Below are positions 13,765-22,914 of a stretch of DNA of 64,000 bases, one piece after another. The notes below the pieces were generated by a model that had not been told where the DNA came from, searched no databases, and was given only the letters and a program-made list of their open reading frames with translations. The translations under genes were made by a program, and so were the position numbers. The stretch is from Roseivirga misakiensis (GTDB lineage: Bacteria > Bacteroidota > Bacteroidia > Cytophagales > Cyclobacteriaceae). Position 1 is the stretch's first letter; every line of letters begins with the position of its first letter. The stretch is taken from assembly GCF_001747105.1 (NCBI RefSeq), contig NZ_MDGQ01000005.1, forward strand, positions 186,001 to 250,000. The letters are read 5' to 3'.

Positions 13765-15516
13765 TTAAATTCTAGCCTGATAAGTATATAATTGATAGTA
13801 CCGCCCTTCGCTGGCAATCAATTCATCGTGAGTACCACGTTCTGCGATTTCTCCGTCTTCTATCACTAGAATTTGATCTGCCTGTCGAATGGTACTTAAT
13901 CTATGAGCGATCACGAAAGTGGTTCTACCTTTCATTAACCCGGCTAAACTCTTTTGAATAAATGTCTCGCTTTCGGTATCTAGGTTAGAAGTGGCCTCGT
14001 CGAGTATTAAAACTTTTGGGTCGGCCAATACCGCCCTAGCGATGGCAATACGCTGTCTTTGGCCACCAGATAGCTTCACGCCTCGTTCTCCAATCAAAGT
14101 ATCCAAGCCGTCTTCGAACCGATCAGTGAACTCATTTACATAAGCCGCTTTTACAGCAACGTCTAATTCTTCATCTGAAGCATCTGGTCTGGGGAAAAGG
14201 ATATTTTCTTTGATTGTACCCTCAAAAAGGAAGTCATCTTGGAGTACCACACCTAAGTTTCGGCGATAGCTTTTTAGTTTGACCGTAGAAAGGTCAATAT
14301 CATCGACAGTAATCTTCCCTGATTTTGGGGTCAGGAAAGTCGCAGCTAAACCAGCGATCGTCGATTTCCCTGATCCAGAAGTTCCAACCAATGCCGTCAC
14401 ACTGCCCGATGGTGCGTCGAACTTTATGTTTTTTAGCACATCCACGCCTTCATCGTATGAAAAAGTCACATCGTCAAAGACCATATTCGCTTGAATTTCA
14501 TCGAGTTCCACCGTGCGTTTAGGGTCCTCATCTTCGGTAGCAGTCATCATGATTTCCTCAGTACGATCTAAACCTGCAAAGGCTTCTGTAATTTGACTAC
14601 CGATATTGGACATTTGAACGATAGGAGCGATCATGACGGCTAAATAAGCAATAAAGGCCACTAATTCTCCCGGGGTCATGGAACCTTGGATAATGTAATA
14701 TCCTCCAATACCAAGTATGCCAGTACTAGCCACCCCAGCCAAAAGAAATGTAGCGGAGCTCGTAACGATGGCAGTGGCTGTCAAAGTTTTCTTAACGTTT
14801 TGGTACAATTCGTCTACCCCTTTTTCGAAAGTAGCTATCTCTTGTAATTCGGCACCGAATCCTTTGATCACCCTTACACCATTCAATGTTTCTGTTAAAC
14901 GACCTGTAACCTCTGCATTGAGTTGGCCGCGCTTTCGGAAAATTGGTCTTAAATATGCAAAGGCTTTCATGGCGACAAGCCCGAATATTACAACCGGAGC
15001 AATAACGAATGCGGTTAGTTTTGCATTCATATCAATGAGAATGTATAGCACACCTATGGAGGTTAATAAACCTCCGAGAAGCTGAACTAAGCCAGTACCG
15101 ACCAGATTTCTTACACCCTCCACATCGGTCATTATTCTAGACACCAAAGCACCAGATTTTGTGCTATCGAAATAATTAATGGGTAGAGAAAGTATTTTCT
15201 TTTGAACCTTAACTCTAAGTTGAGCGATCAGTTTTTGTGCCTGAACACTGAGTAATCTAGTCAGTGCAAATGAGGTTCCTGCTTGGGTGATAATGGCTGC
15301 AATAGTAACAGTTATCACAAGCCATAGCTTCTGCATGTCTTTGTTCACCACTACATCGTCAATCAAGAATCTAGTCGCACCAGGAAGCACAAGACTCGCC
15401 GCGCTTCTTAATAGAATTAGAATAAGTCCTATGAGGAGTAAGCCTCTTTTAGGCCATATTATGGTCTTGAATACCTGCCCTACGGTAATGTTGTTTAGCT
15501 TTTTCTTTTTGGCCAT
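13765..15516 (-). CDS. ABC exporter, fused membrane and ATPase domains (MsbA/LmrA type)
   Basis: A 583-residue half-transporter. The N-terminal membrane domain (about 1-310) has six predicted helices. The ATPase domain (about 340-583) carries Walker A GTSGSGKST, the Q-loop near VVLQDDFLFEGT, signature [14 protein letters not shown], Walker B VLILDEATSNLD, and the switch His in VIAHRLST. The length and layout fit homodimeric lipid or drug exporters of the MsbA type. The substrate is not readable. It is the first gene of a probable unit with nudK (3-bp gap). Confidence 0.93.
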   Translation of the reverse strand: MAKKKKLNNITVGQVFKTIIWPKRGLLLIGLILILLRSAASLVLPGATRFLIDDVVVNKDMQKLWLVITVTIAAIITQAGTSFALTRLLSVQAQKLIAQLRVKVQKKILSLPINYFDSTKSGALVSRIMTDVEGVRNLVGTGLVQLLGGLLTSIGVLYILIDMNAKLTAFVIAPVVIFGLVAMKAFAYLRPIFRKRGQLNAEVTGRLTETLNGVRVIKGFGAELQEIATFEKGVDELYQNVKKTLTATAIVTSSATFLLAGVASTGILGIGGYYIIQGSMTPGELVAFIAYLAVMIAPIVQMSNIGSQITEAFAGLDRTEEIMMTATEDEDPKRTVELDEIQANMVFDDVTFSYDEGVDVLKNIKFDAPSGSVTALVGTSGSGKSTIAGLAATFLTPKSGKITVDDIDLSTVKLKSYRRNLGVVLQDDFLFEGTIKENILFPRPDASDEELDVAVKAAYVNEFTDRFEDGLDTLIGERGVKLSGGQRQRIAIARAVLADPKVLILDEATSNLDTESETFIQKSLAGLMKGRTTFVIAHRLSTIRQADQILVIEDGEIAERGTHDELIASEGRYYQLYTYQARI

Positions 15517-15610
15517 GAAAATATTGTTGGATGATGGCTAAACGAAGTGTTCACCAAATTGATTCCAAGTTATAGAAAGTAATTTAGCTGACACTTGATT
15601 TAGATCAATT

Positions 15611-16825
15611 TCATGAGCCTGTTGCTAAACCCACATGATTCCAAAAACTAGGGTAGGATTTATCCACAACTGATGGATCCTTAATCAAAATGTCCTGTTG
15701 TGTGCTAAGTGGGGCAAAGGCCATGGCCATTCTATGGTCTTCGTAGGTTTCTATGGTTACTTCTGGCTGGCCAGGTTGAAATTTAGATTTGATTTCCCAA
15801 ACACCTTCCTCTGTCTCTTTTAGCTTGATATTGAACTTTTTGAGTTCCCGTTTTAGCGCCTTGATTCTATCAGTTTCTTTAATCCGTAAGCTTTCAAGGC
15901 CCGTCATTTTACAAGAAATATGTTTGACGCCGCAAACTACTGCCACGGTTTGGGCAAGGTCAGGGCAATCTGAAAAATCGATTTCAACTTCGTTTCGAGC
16001 CGGAATTTTTTGTAACAATACGCCGTCGGCTTCGAAAGTACTCATAACGCCAAGCTGATTCATAATCCTTACGATGGCAATATCTCCTTGAAGCGATTTT
16101 TGGCGCAGGCCTAATAATTTGATTTCCGCGCTTTCAGCTAAGGCTGCAAAACTGAACCAATAACTGGCTCCAGACCAATCTGATTCTACCTGATACGGAT
16201 AAGATTGGTAAGGTTGTGGTTTTACTTCAATGGTATTGTTAGTCCAAGAAGACTGAATACCAAAGAGCTTCATCATATCCAAAGTCATTTGAATGTAAGG
16301 GCGGCTTCCGATTTTCCCAATCAGCTCAAGAATTAGTCCTTCAGGTAAGGCAGGAGCAATCATTAGAATAGCTGAAATGAATTGACTGCTCACATCACCC
16401 TTCATCCGAATCCGTTCTTTTTTTTGATCCTTTATTGGGGTGATTTTCATGGGCGGATACCCATCATTCTTCAAGTATTTAACCTTTGCGCCAATTTGTT
16501 TCAGTGCTTTTCCAAGAATCTTGATCGGACGCTTCTGCATTCTTGGCGTGCCTGTAAGAACCCGAGGATTTTTCCCCAACGCCGAATATGCCGTCAAGAA
16601 GCGCATAGTCGTTCCCGCGTCTAGAACGTCCAGTGTTTCTTCGTTGCTGGTCAAAAGCCTCAGCATAGTCTGGGTATCCCTAGCATTAGACAGGTTTGAA
16701 ATTGCTGACGTATTTCCGCTAAGTGCATTGATGATCAACGCTCGGTTACTTTCGCTTTTTGAAGCTTCAAGTGGGATTGTTACGGCGTTTAATTTAGGAC
16801 AGTGTTTTAAGGCGATTGACTCCAC
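15611..16825 (-). CDS. aroA: 3-phosphoshikimate 1-carboxyvinyltransferase (EPSP synthase)
   Basis: Joins phosphoenolpyruvate to shikimate-3-phosphate, step six of the shikimate pathway. At 404 residues it is slightly shorter than E. coli AroA (427). Visible blocks are SKSESNRALIINAL (N-terminal Lys/Arg loop), LDAGTTMRFLTAY (substrate loop), KGDVSSQFISAILM, SGASYWFSFAALA, RIKETDRIKAL, EDHRMAMAFAPL and VDKSYPSFW. The start is GTG at 16825, one base after the aroB stop, which points to translational coupling. It is the last gene of the attenuated aro unit. The glyphosate-site loop is the GTTMRF form, unlike the NAGTAMRPL of E. coli. Confidence 0.95.
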   Translation of the reverse strand: MESIALKHCPKLNAVTIPLEASKSESNRALIINALSGNTSAISNLSNARDTQTMLRLLTSNEETLDVLDAGTTMRFLTAYSALGKNPRVLTGTPRMQKRPIKILGKALKQIGAKVKYLKNDGYPPMKITPIKDQKKERIRMKGDVSSQFISAILMIAPALPEGLILELIGKIGSRPYIQMTLDMMKLFGIQSSWTNNTIEVKPQPYQSYPYQVESDWSGASYWFSFAALAESAEIKLLGLRQKSLQGDIAIVRIMNQLGVMSTFEADGVLLQKIPARNEVEIDFSDCPDLAQTVAVVCGVKHISCKMTGLESLRIKETDRIKALKRELKKFNIKLKETEEGVWEIKSKFQPGQPEVTIETYEDHRMAMAFAPLSTQQDILIKDPSVVDKSYPSFWNHVGLATGS

Positions 16826-16826
16826 T

Positions 16827-17861
16827 TTAGGCTTTCAGGTTTATATAATAAAATAAAGCATCCATCACATCTTTTTCATCTACCGCCACATCATACGTAG
16901 CACGACCGATTTCATAGAGTAGTGAATGGTTAAGTAGATTATTCACATTCTTTTTGTCTTGATACATCAGGCTAATAATTGATGTAAAGTCTCTTTTCTG
17001 GATATTAAGATCGGGATAAATCTTAAGGATATACGATGAAATGGCGCCTAGCGTATCAACTTCAAGACTTAATAATTTTTTGGAAACATGGGCTTCACAA
17101 ATCATCCCTATAGCGATCGCTTCACCGTGTAACAAGTGATTTTCTCCGTCGAGGTAAAAGCTTTCAATCGCGTGGCCGATCGTATGACCAAAATTCAAAA
17201 TTTTCCTTAGCCCTGCTTCTTTAGGGTCAGCTTTGACCACTTCATTTTTGATCTCTACGGAATGGGCGATAACAGCATTCCAATTCTCCTGATCAAGGCC
17301 TTTATTACTGACCTGCTGGAAATAGTCTTTGTCTACAATGAGTCCATGTTTAATAACCTCAGCAAAACCCGATCTCAACTCTTTTTTCGACAGTGTCTCA
17401 AGAAATATTGGATCGATAAAGACTGCTTTAGGGTCTTGGAAGAAGCCTAAATGGTTTTTTAAACCCTGAAAATCGATACCAAGTTTTCCGCCCACGTTAG
17501 CGTCAACAGCTGCTAAAAGCGTCGTTGGGATATTAATAAAGTCGATTCCTCTTTTGTAAGTAACCGCGCAGAAACCTCCCATATCGCCGATCACGCCGCC
17601 CCCTAAATTCACTAATAAAGATTTTCTGTCAAATGCGTTAGCCGTGAGTTTTTCCCAAATCAGTTGACAGGTATTTAGGTTCTTATTGCTTTCCCCAGAT
17701 GCTATTTCAATGACTAAATGATCGGGTAAAAAGTCTTTTATGATTGGGTAGCAGTGATTGTGTGTGTTTTCATCTACCAAAACAGACACTTTGGTATAAG
17801 TATTTTCCTCAAAGAAGGCGCCTAGGCTTGTTTTAATATCGTCTATTTGAATTTGACTCAT
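16827..17861 (-). CDS. aroB: 3-dehydroquinate synthase
   Basis: Converts DAHP to 3-dehydroquinate with NAD and a divalent metal, step two of the shikimate pathway. At 344 residues it is near the short end of the family. NAD- and substrate-binding blocks include LGGGVIGDMGGF, FINIPTTLLAAVDANVGGK, FAEVIKHGLI (Lys/His) and the metal-binding NFGHTIGHAIE (two His). The ATG overlaps the stop of the DAHP synthase gene by 4 bases (ATGA), and aroA follows after one base. The three genes are therefore a tightly coupled unit downstream of the leader-peptide attenuator. Confidence 0.95.
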   Translation of the reverse strand: MSQIQIDDIKTSLGAFFEENTYTKVSVLVDENTHNHCYPIIKDFLPDHLVIEIASGESNKNLNTCQLIWEKLTANAFDRKSLLVNLGGGVIGDMGGFCAVTYKRGIDFINIPTTLLAAVDANVGGKLGIDFQGLKNHLGFFQDPKAVFIDPIFLETLSKKELRSGFAEVIKHGLIVDKDYFQQVSNKGLDQENWNAVIAHSVEIKNEVVKADPKEAGLRKILNFGHTIGHAIESFYLDGENHLLHGEAIAIGMICEAHVSKKLLSLEVDTLGAISSYILKIYPDLNIQKRDFTSIISLMYQDKKNVNNLLNHSLLYEIGRATYDVAVDEKDVMDALFYYINLKA

Positions 17862-18952
17862 GCTTGACTAGCAGATTTGACTTCCTTGAGTTGAGCTTCT
17901 TGCATTTTGACCGACTCTTCGTGTAACGCAAATAAAAAGCTTTTCATAAATTTTTCGGTCATGTTTTTATTCGTCCCTGACTTTATCCGTGACTCCATTA
18001 CATCTTGCCAGCGATTGGGTTGGTAAACTGCCAAATTATGAGAGCGTTTGTACTCACCAATTTGTTTGATCATTTGAAACCTATCCGAGAGCAGTTCTAT
18101 GATTTGTGCGTCCACCAAGTCTACTTTTTGACGGAACTTATCCAGTTCACTAATTGCCTCTGGGTGTTTGTCTAAAGTTTCCCTGAAATTGAGGTTTTCG
18201 ATAATGATTTTAAAAGTATCTGGTGTAACCTGTTGTTTAGCATCGCTCCAAGCATTATCAGGATCGTGATGTGTTTCAATCATAAGTCCGTCTAGTCCGA
18301 AATTAATTGCACGTTGACTTACAGAAGCAATAATTTCTCTGGTACCAGCTATGTGGCTAGGGTCACAGATTACAGATATGCCTGGGATCATTCTTTTGAG
18401 GTGGATGGGCATACTCCATTCTGGTTTGTTTCTATAGCGCTTCTCATATGGATCAGAAAAGCCTCTATGGATAGCGGCAACCTTGTTAATACCCACTTTA
18501 TTGAGCCGCTCAATCGCGCCAAGCCAAAGTTGAAGATCTGGGTTGATAGGGTTTTTAACCATCACTGGGATGTCTGTACCTCTTAAAGCTTCGCAAATTT
18601 CCTGAACCGAAAATGGGTTGACAGTCGTTCTCGCACCTATCCACAGCACTTCAATATCAGCTTTCAAAGCAGCCTCTACATGACTAGTATTTGCTACCTC
18701 TACAGTGACTGGCACATTCAAGATTTCTCTTGCACTGTTGAGCCATGATAAGGCATCGTTTCCAATACCCTCAAAGGAACCCGGTCTTGTTCTTGGTTTC
18801 CAAACTCCGGCTCGAAACAAGCCTAAATTTGCTCCTCTAAGGCCTTTGGCGATTATTTCAATTTGTTGCTGACTTTCGGCAGAACAAGGTCCGGCAATAA
18901 GTACGTGCTCGTCTAGACCTAAACCCCAATCTTTAATATCAACGATATCCAT
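17858..18952 (-). CDS. Bifunctional DAHP synthase / chorismate mutase, copy 2 (attenuator-controlled)
   Basis: A 364-residue fusion. Residues about 1-265 are a DAHP synthase of the DAHPS I/KDSA superfamily: AGPCSAESQQQ, FRAGVWKPRTRPGSFEG, WIGARTTVNPF, VMVKNPINPD, AIHRGFSDPY and CDPSHIAGTRE. Residues about 275-360 are an AroQ-type chorismate mutase, with the first-helix Arg in KFRQKVDLVD, Arg in SDRFQMIKQIG, Lys in EYKRSHN, Arg in PNRWQDVM and Gln in SVKMQEA. It thus makes DAHP at the pathway entrance and prephenate at the Phe/Tyr branch. The start lies 11 bp after a terminator preceded by a Tyr/Phe leader peptide, so expression is probably attenuated. aroB and aroA follow with overlap. Copy 1 lies just upstream. 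Confidence 0.93.
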   Translation of the reverse strand: MDIVDIKDWGLGLDEHVLIAGPCSAESQQQIEIIAKGLRGANLGLFRAGVWKPRTRPGSFEGIGNDALSWLNSAREILNVPVTVEVANTSHVEAALKADIEVLWIGARTTVNPFSVQEICEALRGTDIPVMVKNPINPDLQLWLGAIERLNKVGINKVAAIHRGFSDPYEKRYRNKPEWSMPIHLKRMIPGISVICDPSHIAGTREIIASVSQRAINFGLDGLMIETHHDPDNAWSDAKQQVTPDTFKIIIENLNFRETLDKHPEAISELDKFRQKVDLVDAQIIELLSDRFQMIKQIGEYKRSHNLAVYQPNRWQDVMESRIKSGTNKNMTEKFMKSFLFALHEESVKMQEAQLKEVKSASQA

Positions 18953-18963
18953 ATCTCTAAAAT

Positions 18964-18993
18964 AAAAAAGCCCGATTCTGATGAACCGGGCTT
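18964..18993 (-). terminator. Attenuator terminator before DAHP synthase copy 2
   Basis: Reading the minus strand, AAGCCCG (18993-18987) pairs with CGGGCTT (18974-18968), and a T-run goes to 18964. This ends only 11 bp before the ATG at 18952. The left arm contains CGGTTC (18988-18983), which is complementary to GAACCG at 19029-19024, beginning at the last base of the leader stop codon. The two pairings are mutually exclusive, so this is read as a terminator/antiterminator switch rather than the end of the preceding gene. Confidence 0.85.
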
Positions 18994-19028
18994 AAAGTTT
19001 TAATTAAGTTTCTTTATAGACAGCGGTT

Positions 19029-19088
19029 CTACTTGATGGGTATCAAAAAGTAAAAAAAGTAATAATACGACGCTGGCCATCTTTTCAT
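19029..19088 (-). CDS. Tyr/Phe-rich leader peptide controlling the aro unit
   Basis: A 20-codon minus-strand frame encodes MKRWPASYYYFFYFLIPIK and a TAG stop. Codons 8-14 are Tyr-Tyr-Tyr-Phe-Phe-Tyr-Phe. It lies between the two DAHP synthase/chorismate mutase genes and ends 35 bp before the terminator stem at 18993. A ribosome stalled for charged tRNA-Tyr or tRNA-Phe would leave GAACCG (19029-19024) free. That segment could then pair with the terminator left arm and allow read-through. A ribosome reaching the stop would cover it and let the terminator form. Known pheA/pheST leaders work this way; here it is inferred from sequence alone. A TATGTTTA box at 19100-19093 could be a local promoter. 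Confidence 0.85.
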   Translation of the reverse strand: MKRWPASYYYFFYFLIPIK

Positions 19089-19220
19089 ACGCTAAACATA
19101 TGTATCTTCTCTAGAAGTCAGAAACATATTTGAGGAAATTTTGGTAAATCGATTGAATTATTTCTCCTTTCGTTCGAATTCTTACTTCTTTCTGGGGCTA
19201 AAGGCCCGTATTTAAAAGCT

Positions 19221-20324
19221 TTATCCTTTCTGATCTAGACGTGCGTCTTCTTCCGATTTATTAAATACTTCGGTTTGTTTCTTAACTGATTGTTGATGCA
19301 AAAGTCTTAAAAGCTCTGTAGCGAATTCTGGGTCAAGATTCATTTGTTTAGCCCATTCGGGTCTGGATTTGAATATTTCCTTCCATCTGCCCACTTGAAA
19401 TATGGCAACATTATTTTCTTTCTTAAACTCACCGATCTTTTCCACAAGATTCATTCTAATAGCGATTGCTTCTAACAATTCTCTATCCGCCTGATCGATT
19501 TGCTGTCGGATAATATCCAATTGGTTGAGGTAACTCTTATCTGTGAATCCGGCATCCCGAAGATTTAAATTGTCTACAATTTCTAGGAATTGATCTGTAG
19601 AAACTTGTTGGGCTGCATCGCTCAAGGCTTTGTCTGGGTTGTAATGAGTCTCAATCATTAACCCGTCATAATAGAGGTCAAGGGCTTTTTGCGAGATTTC
19701 ACCAATTAGTTTTCTCGTTCCGCCGATATGGCTTGGGTCACAAATGAGCGGCAGATTTGGGAATTCGCTTTTTAAATCGAGGGGAATTTGCCAAAAAGGT
19801 GGGTTGCGGTATTTATTCTTTTCATACGTATGAAAGCCCCTGTGAATGGCGCCAAGTTGCTTGATTCCTGCTTTATAAAATCTTTCTAAAGCTCCTTTCC
19901 AAAGCGAAAGTTCAGGGTGTACTGGGTTTTTAACAAAAACTGGAATATCAACCCCTTTCAGAGCCGTAGCGATTTCACTCACGTTGAATGGATTCACAGT
20001 AGTTCTGGCTCCGATCCATAAGGCGTCGACCTCATACTTCAATGCAAGGTCCACATGTTCTGGAGTGGCAACTTCTGTGGTAAACTTAAAGTCTAGCTCC
20101 TGTTTCAAAGATTTTACCCAAACAAGAGCATCTTCTCCAACTCCCTCAAAAGAACCAGGTCTTGTTCTTGGCTTCCAAATCCCACCCCGGATAAAGTCCG
20201 CTTTATGGCGTATCGAAGTGACAGATTGCCGAAACTGATCTTCAGATTCTACGCTACATGGGCCAGCGATTATCATTGGCCTAGTGTGGTCTTTTACCCG
20301 TCCCTTCAAACCATCAATTTCCAT
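19221..20324 (-). CDS. Bifunctional DAHP synthase / chorismate mutase, copy 1
   Basis: A 367-residue paralogue of the downstream gene with the same domain order. The DAHP synthase part (about 1-270) shows AGPCSVESEDQ, FIRGGIWKPRTRPGSFEG, WIGARTTVNPF, VFVKNPVHPE, AIHRGFHTYEKNKYRNPP and CDPSHIGGTRK. The AroQ mutase (about 280-350) keeps Arg in IIRQQIDQAD, Arg in AIRMNLVEKIG, Lys in EFKKENN, Arg in VGRWKEIF and Gln in SVKKQTE. There is no leader peptide in its 82-bp upstream gap, shared with the divergent proline dehydrogenase gene. The two copies may differ in feedback control and are regulated differently. Tandem duplication is the simplest origin. Confidence 0.93.
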   Translation of the reverse strand: MEIDGLKGRVKDHTRPMIIAGPCSVESEDQFRQSVTSIRHKADFIRGGIWKPRTRPGSFEGVGEDALVWVKSLKQELDFKFTTEVATPEHVDLALKYEVDALWIGARTTVNPFNVSEIATALKGVDIPVFVKNPVHPELSLWKGALERFYKAGIKQLGAIHRGFHTYEKNKYRNPPFWQIPLDLKSEFPNLPLICDPSHIGGTRKLIGEISQKALDLYYDGLMIETHYNPDKALSDAAQQVSTDQFLEIVDNLNLRDAGFTDKSYLNQLDIIRQQIDQADRELLEAIAIRMNLVEKIGEFKKENNVAIFQVGRWKEIFKSRPEWAKQMNLDPEFATELLRLLHQQSVKKQTEVFNKSEEDARLDQKG

Positions 20325-20352
20325 CCTTTAAAACGTTTTTTCTTTGCTATAA

Positions 20353-20389
20353 CAAATGTAAAAGACTTGATGTTTGTTAATTATATTTG
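20353..20389. promoter_or_regulatory. Divergent -7 elements between DAHP synthase copy 1 and proline dehydrogenase
   Basis: TACATTTG on the minus strand (20360-20353) faces the DAHP synthase gene. TATATTTG on the plus strand (20382-20389) faces proline dehydrogenase. Both match TAnnTTTG, but neither has a good -33 box. The plus element places transcription after the alternative TTG start at 20374, which supports ATG 20407. Confidence 0.45.
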
Positions 20390-20406
20390 GCCTTCTAATT
20401 CGACCT

Positions 20407-21585
20407 ATGGAGCTGAAAAAATTCGTGGATTTTGATCAGATTGATATCGCATTTAAAGCAAAATCTGATAAAGCGTTAAAAAAACGCCATTTCATATTTT
20501 CTACCATGAAATGGCCTTGGTTAGTGAGTGTGGGCACCTCACTCACAAAGTTTAGCCTTTCTGCTGGCCTACCAGTAAAAGGATTAGTCAAGTCGACCAT
20601 ATTCGATATTTTCTGTGGAGGAGAATCGCTAGAAACTTGTTCCGATGCTTGCAATGAGCTCGAACACTATGGTATAGGAGCAATTTTTGACTATTCTGTC
20701 GAGGGTGAAAAAACCGAAACTGGTTTTGATGCCACCGCTGAAGAAGTACTTCGAACAATCGAAACAGCATCAAAATCGGATGTTATGAAGTTTGCTGCCT
20801 TTAAAATTACAGGCGTTGGTGCTTTCGATTTGTTGGCTAAAATTCATGCGGGGGAAACGCTGTTTACGGAGGAATCATCGGCATATGATCGTATTGTAAA
20901 ACGTGTAGAGCGTATTTGTGCCTTGGCAAGCGAGCTTGATGTGACGGTTCTAATTGATGCTGAAGAAACTTGGATCCAAAAGCCGATCGACGACATTACG
21001 ATCGACATGATGAGGAAGTATAATAAAGAGAAAGCCGTCATTTATTATACGTTCCAGATGTATTGTCACGCGATGTTGGATAACTTACAATCGCTTCATA
21101 AACAGGCCGTTTCTGACGGTTATATCTTAGGTGCTAAGTTGGTTAGAGGCGCTTACATGGAGAAAGAAAGAGAAAGGGCCGAGGAAATGGGTTATTTAGA
21201 TCCAATTCAACCCACTAAGCAATCCACCGACGATGATTTTAACGCGGCATGCCAATACTGTATTGAGCACTTGAACGAAATTGGTCTATTTGCTGGTTCG
21301 CACAACGAGGAGTCGAATTATAGGTTGACGTTGCTTATGGATGAGCATAATTTACAACCTGATGATCAAAGGGTGTATTTCGGTCAGCTATACGGGATGA
21401 GTGATCATATTTCTTTCAACCTTGCGCACGGCAATTATAATGTGATAAAATATGTGCCTTATGGTCCTTTGAAAGCCACTATACCTTATTTGATTAGGCG
21501 AGCGGCTGAAAACACGTCAGTAAAAGGGCAAAGCGGAAGAGAACTTACGCTGGTAACGAAAGAGCTGAAGCGTCGAAAATCTTAA
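20407..21585 (+). CDS. Proline dehydrogenase (monofunctional PRODH)
   Basis: The 392-residue flavoenzyme oxidises proline to pyrroline-5-carboxylate, passing electrons to quinone. It corresponds to the PRODH half of PutA only, with no P5C dehydrogenase domain. Visible blocks of the TIM barrel include VLIDAEETWIQ, the long LGAKLVRGAYMEKERERAE block, FAGSHNEESN, FGQLYGMSDHISF and YLIRRAAENTSV (the substrate-contacting YxxRRxxE). The start is set at ATG 20407; an upstream TTG at 20374 would fall within the promoter. It reads away from the aro cluster and ends at a strong two-way terminator. Confidence 0.9.
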   Translation: MELKKFVDFDQIDIAFKAKSDKALKKRHFIFSTMKWPWLVSVGTSLTKFSLSAGLPVKGLVKSTIFDIFCGGESLETCSDACNELEHYGIGAIFDYSVEGEKTETGFDATAEEVLRTIETASKSDVMKFAAFKITGVGAFDLLAKIHAGETLFTEESSAYDRIVKRVERICALASELDVTVLIDAEETWIQKPIDDITIDMMRKYNKEKAVIYYTFQMYCHAMLDNLQSLHKQAVSDGYILGAKLVRGAYMEKERERAEEMGYLDPIQPTKQSTDDDFNAACQYCIEHLNEIGLFAGSHNEESNYRLTLLMDEHNLQPDDQRVYFGQLYGMSDHISFNLAHGNYNVIKYVPYGPLKATIPYLIRRAAENTSVKGQSGRELTLVTKELKRRKS

Positions 21586-21601
21586 ATCGAGTTGAAAAAC
21601 T

Positions 21602-21634
21602 AAAAAAGGCCCTGATTATATCAGGGCCTTTTTT
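21602..21634. terminator. Strong bidirectional rho-independent terminator
   Basis: AAAAAAGGCCCTGA (21602-21615), a five-base loop and TCAGGGCCTTTTTT (21621-21634) form a perfect 14-bp stem with A and T runs on its flanks. It serves the proline dehydrogenase gene and the convergent M56 peptidase gene. Confidence 0.9.
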
Positions 21635-21651
21635 GCTGACCAATGGGCGAA

Positions 21652-22914
21652 TTATTGTTTTCTCTTTTCTGCTCTTACATTAGCTACTCTCGTTACTTTT
21701 ACAGGCTTTTCATGGTAGGCATTAAGAGATTTTACCTGATTTTCAGTTAAGTTCTGTAAGTTTTTGTGGTTGTATTCAGATCTTACTTGTTCAACAATTG
21801 TGTTGTTCGAGTCTTCTTTCAATTCTTTAACGATTAAAACATCCGACTCGAAATAGACTTTATCTGAATTTTTGTCAGTAATGTCGATTGTGGTTGTGCC
21901 TTCGCTGCCTTGCTCTTTCAATATGCCTTGGATAAGTACAGGTTTGCGGTTCTCATCTAAGAATACATTAAGTGTATCGTAAAAAGCTGCCTTTTGCTCT
22001 GTGATGAGTTCGGCTTCTGAATCAATTGATTGCTTGGGATCATTAATATTTACTGGTTCTGTCTCTGGATCTGGTGTACAAGCAAAACCTATAATTAAAA
22101 TAGCAATGACCGGTAGTGCGAAGAAGGGTTTGAATTTTTTCATAACATTTGAGTTTAATTTTTGAATCATATTTAATCTTTTTTGAATAGGGTGTTCACT
22201 GAAGCTTGAAACAAGTCCAGTATTGAGTTTTGATAATGTCAGCTCTAAAAGAGATTTCTCATAACTTCTCGCATTGGTCAATTTTAGCGCCTGATCGTCT
22301 GCGATGTATTCATGCTGTAGCTTGATTGATTTTAAATAGAAGTAACTGAAAGGGTTGAACCAGAACACACATTGTAAAATCTCGAAAAAGAATATGTCTA
22401 CGGAATGCTTGCCTCTAATATGAGCTAGTTCGTGGGCAATTACATGGGATTTAAGCTGTTCATTGTCCTTTATATCCTGACCGATATAGATGGTGTTTAG
22501 AAAACTGTATGCATTAAAACCATCAGTTTGGGAAATACTTATTCGTTTGTTCTTCAAAGAGAACTTTGCGCCCAGCCTTTTTTTGAGTGTTGCTATTTTG
22601 AGTAATAAGATAATGCTAGCGATGATTACCCCTATGGCGTAAATGTTCGTCAAGGATAAGCCGATTGTAAAAGGCGACGACTTTTCAACTCCTTCAAGAC
22701 CTGGGTTAATCGTTTGGCTGCTTATGCCTTCAATGGCACTAGGTACATTTATAGGCAAATCGAAATCGAATAGCGGTATGCTTATGGCCAGAACTGCCGT
22801 AATGATCAGATAGGCTCTATTAATAGTTAAGAGTTTTTCGCTTCGCAGAAAGAGCCAGTAAAAAGTATAAAAGCAAGCTAGGCAAATCGATGATTCTATT
22901 AGATAACTAGTCAT
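21652..22914 (-). CDS. M56-family membrane metallopeptidase (BlaR1/MecR1-like signal transducer)
   Basis: The 420-residue product has several N-terminal membrane helices (about 5-25, 36-52, 90-107). A cytoplasmic zinc protease follows, with HELAH at 161-165 (His161, Glu162, His165) and a second-metal-ligand region near YIADDQALK. A further membrane segment, FALPVIAILIIGFACT, lies near 270-285. The 130-residue C-terminal part is charged and lacks the penicillin-binding sensor domain of true BlaR1. It overlaps the BlaI-family gene by 8 bp. By analogy it would cleave the repressor in response to a signal; that signal is unknown, and no beta-lactamase gene is nearby. Confidence 0.88.
   Translation of the reverse strand: MTSYLIESSICLACFYTFYWLFLRSEKLLTINRAYLIITAVLAISIPLFDFDLPINVPSAIEGISSQTINPGLEGVEKSSPFTIGLSLTNIYAIGVIIASIILLLKIATLKKRLGAKFSLKNKRISISQTDGFNAYSFLNTIYIGQDIKDNEQLKSHVIAHELAHIRGKHSVDIFFFEILQCVFWFNPFSYFYLKSIKLQHEYIADDQALKLTNARSYEKSLLELTLSKLNTGLVSSFSEHPIQKRLNMIQKLNSNVMKKFKPFFALPVIAILIIGFACTPDPETEPVNINDPKQSIDSEAELITEQKAAFYDTLNVFLDENRKPVLIQGILKEQGSEGTTTIDITDKNSDKVYFESDVLIVKELKEDSNNTIVEQVRSEYNHKNLQNLTENQVKSLNAYHEKPVKVTRVANVRAEKRKQ

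Follow-up and report, generated by a model that had tools for sequence, protein, structure and literature searches.

A short reading frame with seven consecutive Tyr and Phe codons lies directly ahead of genes for aromatic amino acid biosynthesis in Roseivirga misakiensis, which raises the question of whether translation of this frame could decide if the genes behind it are transcribed. The frame belongs to a stretch of 64,000 nucleotides, referred to here as the window, that corresponds to C5:186001-250000 of the 4.45-Mb genome and carries the candidate attenuator and the operon all on the minus strand (Table 1). Our answer, to which we assign a probability of about 0.92, is that the element would act as a ribosome-mediated transcription attenuator, leaderless, ahead of the DAHP synthase/chorismate mutase-aroB-aroA operon. 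The content of the operon fits the pathway of the amino acids that the run encodes. The window gave no match among plasmid records, and no tandem repeats were found within its positions 15000-22000.

Table 1. Leader region, predicted regulatory elements and neighbouring genes, in window coordinates
Feature	Position	Strand	Basis or remark
Leader ORF, MKRWPASYYYFFYFLIPIK + TAG	19029..19088	(-)	ATG at 19088 is the predicted transcription start; sequence reading, relatives
Putative regulatory codon run, Tyr-Tyr-Tyr-Phe-Phe-Tyr-Phe (YYYFFYF)	19047..19067	(-)	codon table, 31 aligned leaders
Segment 1, within the codons preceding the run; 5' side of protector stem 1:2	19071..19080	(-)	MFE fold, swap test
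Segment 2, partner of segment 1 (19016-19025) or of segment 3 (GAACCG 19024-19029)	19016..19029	(-)	swap test, folds, covariation
Segment 3, terminator 5' arm; its CGGTTC pairs with segment 2	18983..18993	(-)	terminator scan, covariation
Segment 4, terminator 3' arm (18978-18968) and start of T-rich tail	18964..18978	(-)	terminator scan, covariation
Predicted -7 promoter box TATGTTTA, Bacteroidota sigma-A type, 4 nt 5' of leader ATG	19093..19100	(-)	aligned leaders
Weak -33 element, TTTCTG in the window	19119..19124	(-)	logo of 77 leaders, promoter table
DAHP synthase (PF00793)/chorismate mutase type II (PF01817) fusion, putative regulated gene	17858..18952	(-)	domain matches
aroB, 3-dehydroquinate synthase	16827..17861	(-)	overlaps end of the DAHP synthase/chorismate mutase gene
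aroA, EPSP synthase	15611..16825	(-)	domain matches; third gene of the operon
Paralogous DAHP synthase/chorismate mutase, upstream of the leader	19221..20324	(-)	domain matches

The leader frame and its codon run

The original prediction had described a 20-codon minus-strand frame containing YYYFFYF, and this description held: the leader consists of 19 codons and a stop, with its ATG at 19088, seven consecutive Tyr/Phe codons at 19067-19047 and a TAG at 19031-19029. The hairpin and T-run that it had placed 35 bp beyond the stop were found at that distance as well. The stem, at 18993-18968, has 11 pairs, a loop of 4 and a T-rich tail; it begins 35 nt after the leader stop and ends 15 nt before the ATG of the gene (18952). 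On the other side, the upstream paralog ends 133 nt ahead of the leader and has no obvious terminator of its own. An aromatic leader ahead of this paralog was considered and rejected, there being no aromatic frame in 20480-20325. Elsewhere in the window, a 15-pair terminator-like hairpin (21634-21602) is flanked by the convergent proline dehydrogenase gene and the minus-strand gene that follows, which perhaps share it.

Relatives were gathered by a protein search of named genomes, and the best 80 of 571 loci were used; in 14 of these 80 the gene product has 77 to 90% identity, and 10 of the 14 are labelled Roseivirga. By script, 79 of the 80 loci have a short aromatic-run ORF ahead of the orthologous gene, and 64 to 98 nt separate its stop from the matched gene start. 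The eightieth (L076) also carries a leader after correction of its gene start, which had been set about 500 nt too early, and the count is thus 80 of the best 80 of 571. Among 19 genomes of the genus, gene and leader occur together in all 18 that have the gene; the nineteenth, which is 84% complete, lacks it. The original prediction had named absence of the frame from close relatives as evidence against itself, and every relative with the gene, 80 of 80 named and 18 of 18 in the genus, has the leader. Two of the 80 named relatives use GTG as the leader start.

The surroundings of the leader are kept to differing degrees. Among the best 80 of 571 loci, aroB comes next in 78, aroA is present in 76, a divergent proline dehydrogenase gene was found in 61, and the upstream paralog was detected in 35, including all 14 of the Roseivirga group. 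In 17 of 18 genomes of the genus, the paralog and the leader gene are separated by a prephenate dehydratase gene. The window genome has no such gene in its 19221-19088 gap; a divergent copy is found elsewhere (L180), where it adjoins a prephenate dehydrogenase-like gene and is without an aromatic leader.

To follow the leader codon by codon, we used an alignment made from sequence alone, which holds 31 of 33 listed sequences (81 available); L019 and L021, being divergent, were omitted, and for L060 an internal ATG beside its promoter box was chosen by hand as the start. Codons 11 to 14 encode F, F, Y and F in 28, 29, 28 and 28 of the 31 leaders, respectively. Within the run, T at position 1 is kept in six of the seven columns and position 3 mostly alternates between T and C. 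The codons ahead of the run vary freely, and conservation of the peptide is poor outside the run. The window peptide has a single Trp, which occurs at that place in 1 of the 31. Because the run is kept as amino acids while its third positions mostly vary between T and C, the pattern points to selection on the encoded amino acids.

We infer that both Tyr and Phe are sensed, and the same reserve applies to which of the two matters most. It is possible, if clearly the weaker proposition, that the attenuator answers to one amino acid alone, most likely Phe, with the Tyr codons as passengers. A precedent is the aroR-aroF attenuator of C. glutamicum, for which the original paper is said to be Neshat 2014. 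As described in PMC11802643, a Phe/Tyr leader peptide precedes the DAHP synthase gene there too and attenuates its operon by ribosome stalling, with a response to Phe only. Unlike the window, however, C. glutamicum is an actinobacterium, and only Phe-Tyr-Phe is named for its leader. Two observations speak for the sensing of both amino acids over a response to Phe alone: Tyr and Phe are each kept by position (F11 F12 Y13 F14), and the family also has Tyr-only runs, ahead of phenylalanine-hydroxylase-like genes, a hint that regulation can make use of Tyr codons.

Predicted start of the leader RNA

A table of promoters could be drawn up for 79 leaders (L076 and L081 gave no row by script). A TAnnTTT-type box stands at exactly -12 of the ATG in 67 of them and at -13 in 6; in the remaining 6 it is elsewhere or absent, and 2 of these are explained by a second ATG. 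A logo of 77 leaders reads T-12 A-11.. T-8 T-7 T-6 G/A-5 relative to the ATG, and in the -33 region of the 77, where TTTG at -35 to -32 is the commonest sequence, the element is in register. In F. johnsoniae the -7 element runs from T-12 to G-5, and the start site follows after 4 or 5 nt (PMC6847099). Given this spacing and a box at -12, the leader ATG should be +1, so that the message would probably start at the ATG itself and be leaderless.

Leaderless mRNAs are rare in the phylum, which would make such a start unusual. They make up 5.5% in F. psychrophilum (PMC9723704), and 87% of predicted transcripts of F. johnsoniae are given a 5' UTR of more than 10 nt (PMC6847099). For B. thetaiotaomicron, about 3.7% of 5' UTRs are under 10 nt.

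Other families of the class provide a comparison. In 24 of their loci (L090-L113), no convincing aromatic leader was found within 1.5 kb upstream of DAHP synthase, the frames in L100 and L107 being doubtful. Further away, in 19 stretches upstream of class DAHP synthase genes, aromatic-rich short frames occur 2.5 to 3.9 kb upstream in 3 of 6 from the family and 11 of 13 from outside it; 11 of the 19 stretches have a terminator by script, and the next gene, judged by eye, is pheA-like in several. Aromatic leaders thus look widespread in the class. A recognisable box was found in 8 of the 11 aromatic-leader stretches from outside the family; in 7 of these it lies 21 to 35 nt ahead of the ATG, and in the other at a distance of 8 nt. 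As these boxes are mostly distant from the ATG, the leaderless arrangement looks lineage-specific. In two loci of other families (L121 and L123), two tandem aromatic frames lie upstream of the DAHP synthase operon and are possibly double attenuators; terminators were called for both frames in L123 and for the first alone in L121.

These comparisons also bear on an unlikely variant of our reading, in which the attenuator is the same but has an ordinary 5' leader, the near box being inactive and transcription starting further upstream, for example together with the DAHP synthase paralog; read-through from the paralog would yield a longer, leadered RNA. The scarcity of leaderless mRNAs in the phylum and the distant position of 7 of the 8 recognisable boxes outside the family would fit this variant, as would the imperfect box of the window, TATGTTTA, which deviates from the F. 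johnsoniae consensus, with G at -9 and A at -5, and is accompanied by a weak -33 element. Against it, the distance from box to ATG is fixed (-12 in 67 of 79 leaders, -13 in 6), whereas the spacings from stop to stem and from stem to gene vary, and the -33 element is in register. Under a stricter box definition, which the box of the window fails, an ATG stands at +4 of 54 of 58 leader boxes; for the 1018 other boxes that these sequences contain, the figure is 2.3%. A start at the ATG or beside it is the more probable arrangement.

The Trp leader trpL of the trp operon of S. meliloti, an alphaproteobacterium, shows that an attenuator can begin in this way. The 5' end of its RNA is the ATG of the leader ORF, and trans-acting roles are reported for S. 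meliloti (PMC7298713). By analogy with peTrpL and rnTrpL of that system, whose leader RNA likewise begins with ATG, the peptide or the terminated small RNA of the window might also act in trans. We regard this as very improbable: outside the run the peptide is poorly conserved in the aligned leaders, which gives no suggestion of a conserved trans target.

Competing helices in the leader RNA

We then considered whether the RNA could switch. Folding of the 125-nt RNA gives -32.4 kcal/mol (z -3.9), and none of 200 shuffles does as well. A terminator scan is by itself not significant (7 found, compared to 6.8 expected), so that conservation decides. The script called a terminator in 77 of 81 sequences; of the others, L022 and L050 fold into one and L042 and L076 show one by eye. 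In L058, L066 and L069 the script called the inner hairpin alone.

According to the original prediction, GAACCG at 19029-19024, beginning at the leader stop, is complementary to CGGTTC at 18988-18983 in the left arm of the terminator. This is exactly what we found, and the pairing covaries. When it is extended to a 2:3 helix of 12 pairs, 91.9% of 372 alignment cells are paired. There are 28 cells with double changes, compared to 6.6 in shuffles, and the covariation score is 0.313, compared to 0.209 (0 of 500 shuffles in each case). Sliding the partner columns by one to three positions lowers the pairing to 16 to 53%. Stricter counts are weaker: 5 pairs have a double change, against 2.7 in shuffles (reached by 9 of 500), and there are 14 further pair types, against 12.1 (41 of 500). 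The terminator helix, 3:4, is paired in 98.5% of 341 cells, with 17 double-change cells (1.4 in shuffles) and 5 pairs with double changes (1.1; 0 of 500); it passes all five measures, each reached by 0 or 1 of 500 shuffles. Of the three features whose conservation the original prediction had proposed to check, the aromatic run and the GAACCG/CGGTTC pairing are conserved, and the distance from stop to stem varies.

The first reading of the sequence had overlooked a protector stem, 1:2, which the MFE fold of the window forms between 19080-19071 and 19025-19016. The position of this stem shifts by one codon between groups, which makes the alignment unsuitable for counting its pairs in a fixed register, and it was examined by exchanging partners between sequences instead; the evidence for 1:2 consists of this swap test and of the folds. 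The test used 16 representatives with less than 80% identity, drawn from the 77 sequences with a called terminator and excluding those with a misplaced hairpin (L058, L066 and L069). On average, segments pair better with their own partners than with swapped ones both in 2:3 (-15.8 compared to -12.8; 0 of 20000 permutations) and in 1:2 (-15.9 compared to -11.8; p 5e-5). The result is not unanimous: for the window RNA, foreign partners beat its own in 7 of 15 cases for 2:3 and in 8 of 15 for 1:2, and its 2:3 duplex, at -9.5 kcal/mol, is the weakest among 15 Roseivirga-group sequences. The two helices compete, with 8 to 22 nt of segment 2 common to both in all 16 representatives.

The window RNA was also folded with a ribosome footprint as a constraint. 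When the footprint is at codon 8, 10, 12 or 14, RNA that does not yet include arm 4 adopts the 2:3 antiterminator. Moving the footprint to the stop codon abolishes this helix, and RNA free of ribosomes forms 1:2. In the full-length RNA the terminator is always the minimum once arm 4 exists, so the choice made by the switch must be kinetic. The leader stop sits at the start of segment 2 in the window and beyond segment 2 in many relatives. Together, covariation, swap test and constraint folds bear out the claim that the read-through and termination folds exclude each other. A small TTGAT/ATCAA stem that had been placed between them does appear in a fold of the truncated RNA, but its alignment columns are variable, and we rejected it as a functional part for lack of conservation.

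These folds suggest the following sequence of events. RNA polymerase would start at the leader ATG or within one or two nt of it, and a ribosome would load on the 5' AUG of the resulting leaderless RNA and translate the 19-codon leader. If charged Tyr- and Phe-tRNA were ample, the ribosome would reach the stop and cover segment 2, the 3:4 terminator would form, and transcription would end before the structural genes; a short terminated RNA would then be expected in vivo. If charged Tyr- or Phe-tRNA ran short, the ribosome would stall in YYYFFYF with segment 1 covered, 2:3 could pair, and polymerase would read through. If the leader were not translated at all, the 1:2 stem would form and leave the terminator free to form.

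The attenuators of E. coli pheA and trp have the same layout of 1:2, 2:3 and 3:4. They share with the window a leader ORF with cognate codons (pheL and trpL) and a switch between termination and read-through, as PMC11802643 describes them; unlike theirs, the window leader starts at or beside the predicted transcription start. The pheA-type reading offered by the original prediction agrees with what could be looked for at the sequence level, namely the Tyr/Phe run, covarying 2:3 and 3:4 helices, a 1:2 stem and genes of the matching pathway. No Rfam family reaches its gathering cut-off anywhere in the window: Phe_leader (RF01859) scores 20.9 bits, below its cut-off of 55, Trp_leader scores 19.6, below 41, and there is no T-box among the weak matches at 18900-19200. 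We accordingly rejected a T-box or other known Rfam element. Assignment of the window element to the known class of ribosome-mediated attenuators, outside Rfam Phe_leader, appears well supported by its sequence features.

A survey from 2010 places leader-peptide systems known before its own Firmicutes case in Proteobacteria and Actinobacteria only (PMC2965389). Leader-peptide attenuation has since been inferred upstream of amino-acid biosynthesis operons in Flavobacterium psychrophilum, which is of the same phylum but of the family Flavobacteriaceae, and for which the passages concerned state no leaderless arrangement (PMC9723704). For Cytophagales we found no description of such attenuators in the open-licence literature. 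The suggestion that the arrangement was undescribed for this order fits that literature, with the precedent in F. psychrophilum elsewhere in the phylum. Classical attenuation, supported here by covariation, very probably controls aromatic biosynthesis in Cytophagales, and the locus could serve as a clean system for switching by a stalled ribosome without Shine-Dalgarno initiation, with the start codon at the end of the RNA.

The idea that the hairpin merely ends transcription of the upstream paralog, the short ORF being a chance frame, draws on the lack of an obvious terminator behind that paralog and on terminator-like sites being no commoner than in shuffles, but we give it almost no credence and rejected it. 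Conservation and covariation across genera take in the run, the promoter spacing and two helices that exclude each other. Loci with no detected paralog carry the leader as well (the paralog is found in 35 of 80), and 17 of 18 genomes of the genus have a prephenate dehydratase gene separating the paralog from the leader gene.

Related leaders in the genome and the family

We next asked whether the family contains further elements of this kind. A covariance model built from the alignment gave matches in 76 of 148 family genomes; among 20 stretches around its weaker matches, 4 look like ordinary terminators (L218, L226, L230 and L231). One of the matches in the window genome is a second candidate attenuator (L212, C5:2154087-2154216, minus strand), with a Tyr/His leader, MIKNKAYHYHYYYPTVRNGSAM, a promoter box and a terminator. 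It precedes a gene for a biopterin-dependent aromatic amino acid (phenylalanine-hydroxylase-like) hydroxylase, followed by glutamine amidotransferase (hisH-like) and His_biosynth (hisA-like) genes.

The family provided 70 hydroxylase loci, 30 of them by search and 40 fetched. A recognisable Tyr/His leader was present by rule in 28, of which 19 have a script-called terminator, and the other 42 gave none by that rule. Among the 28, the sequence of L258 stops before its downstream genes could be seen. His falls within the block in 18 of the 19 leaders with downstream his genes, and the remaining one has two His just ahead of the block. Among the 8 leaders without his genes over at least 1.6 kb, His is in the block of one and in the uninterrupted run of none. 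The association of His codons with his genes has a Fisher p of 7e-5 (scored on the block, with kinship uncorrected). Tyr/His leaders that track his genes provide a natural test of codon-to-operon matching. The leaders with Tyr alone that precede phenylalanine-hydroxylase-like genes speak for a biosynthetic function of the enzyme, which was proposed earlier from fitness data in Echinicola (PMC7311316).

A leader with Trp-Trp-Trp, MKMTNRNNAWWWHVTEIR, and a terminator stand before trpE in the window genome (L307, C5:2172098-2172532). Among the strong matches examined, of 22 returned, Trp-Trp-Trp leaders before trpE (L302-L312) were found in 11 of 12 loci, including 10 of 10 from the genus. In 8 of the 10 genus loci, 5 to 8 nt separate the box from the ATG, a near-leaderless spacing. 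Taking these leaders together, we lean towards the view that the Cyclobacteriaceae run a set of leaderless or near-leaderless attenuators, in which the ribosome would load at the extreme 5' end in a phylum without Shine-Dalgarno sites and the leader codons would evolve with the genes of the operon: Tyr and Phe for the common pathway, Tyr for phenylalanine hydroxylase, Tyr and His with hisH/hisA-like genes, and Trp for trpE.

Other biosynthetic operons gave few candidates. Frames with a His run before hisG were found in 1 of 24 loci; this locus is from outside the genus, and the frames begin with TTG/GTG. Leaders before homoserine dehydrogenase were found in 0 of 17 loci. No ilv-type leader was found in the 2.7 kb fetched from the window genome or in four other genus stretches. 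In four further loci (L326, L328, L330 and L334), leaders rich in Ile, Val and Thr (e.g. MLKYTAIITVVIITTQTG) are accompanied by terminators roughly 1.3 kb upstream of ilvD, and in L328 a second Ile/Val/Thr-rich frame lies just ahead of the first.
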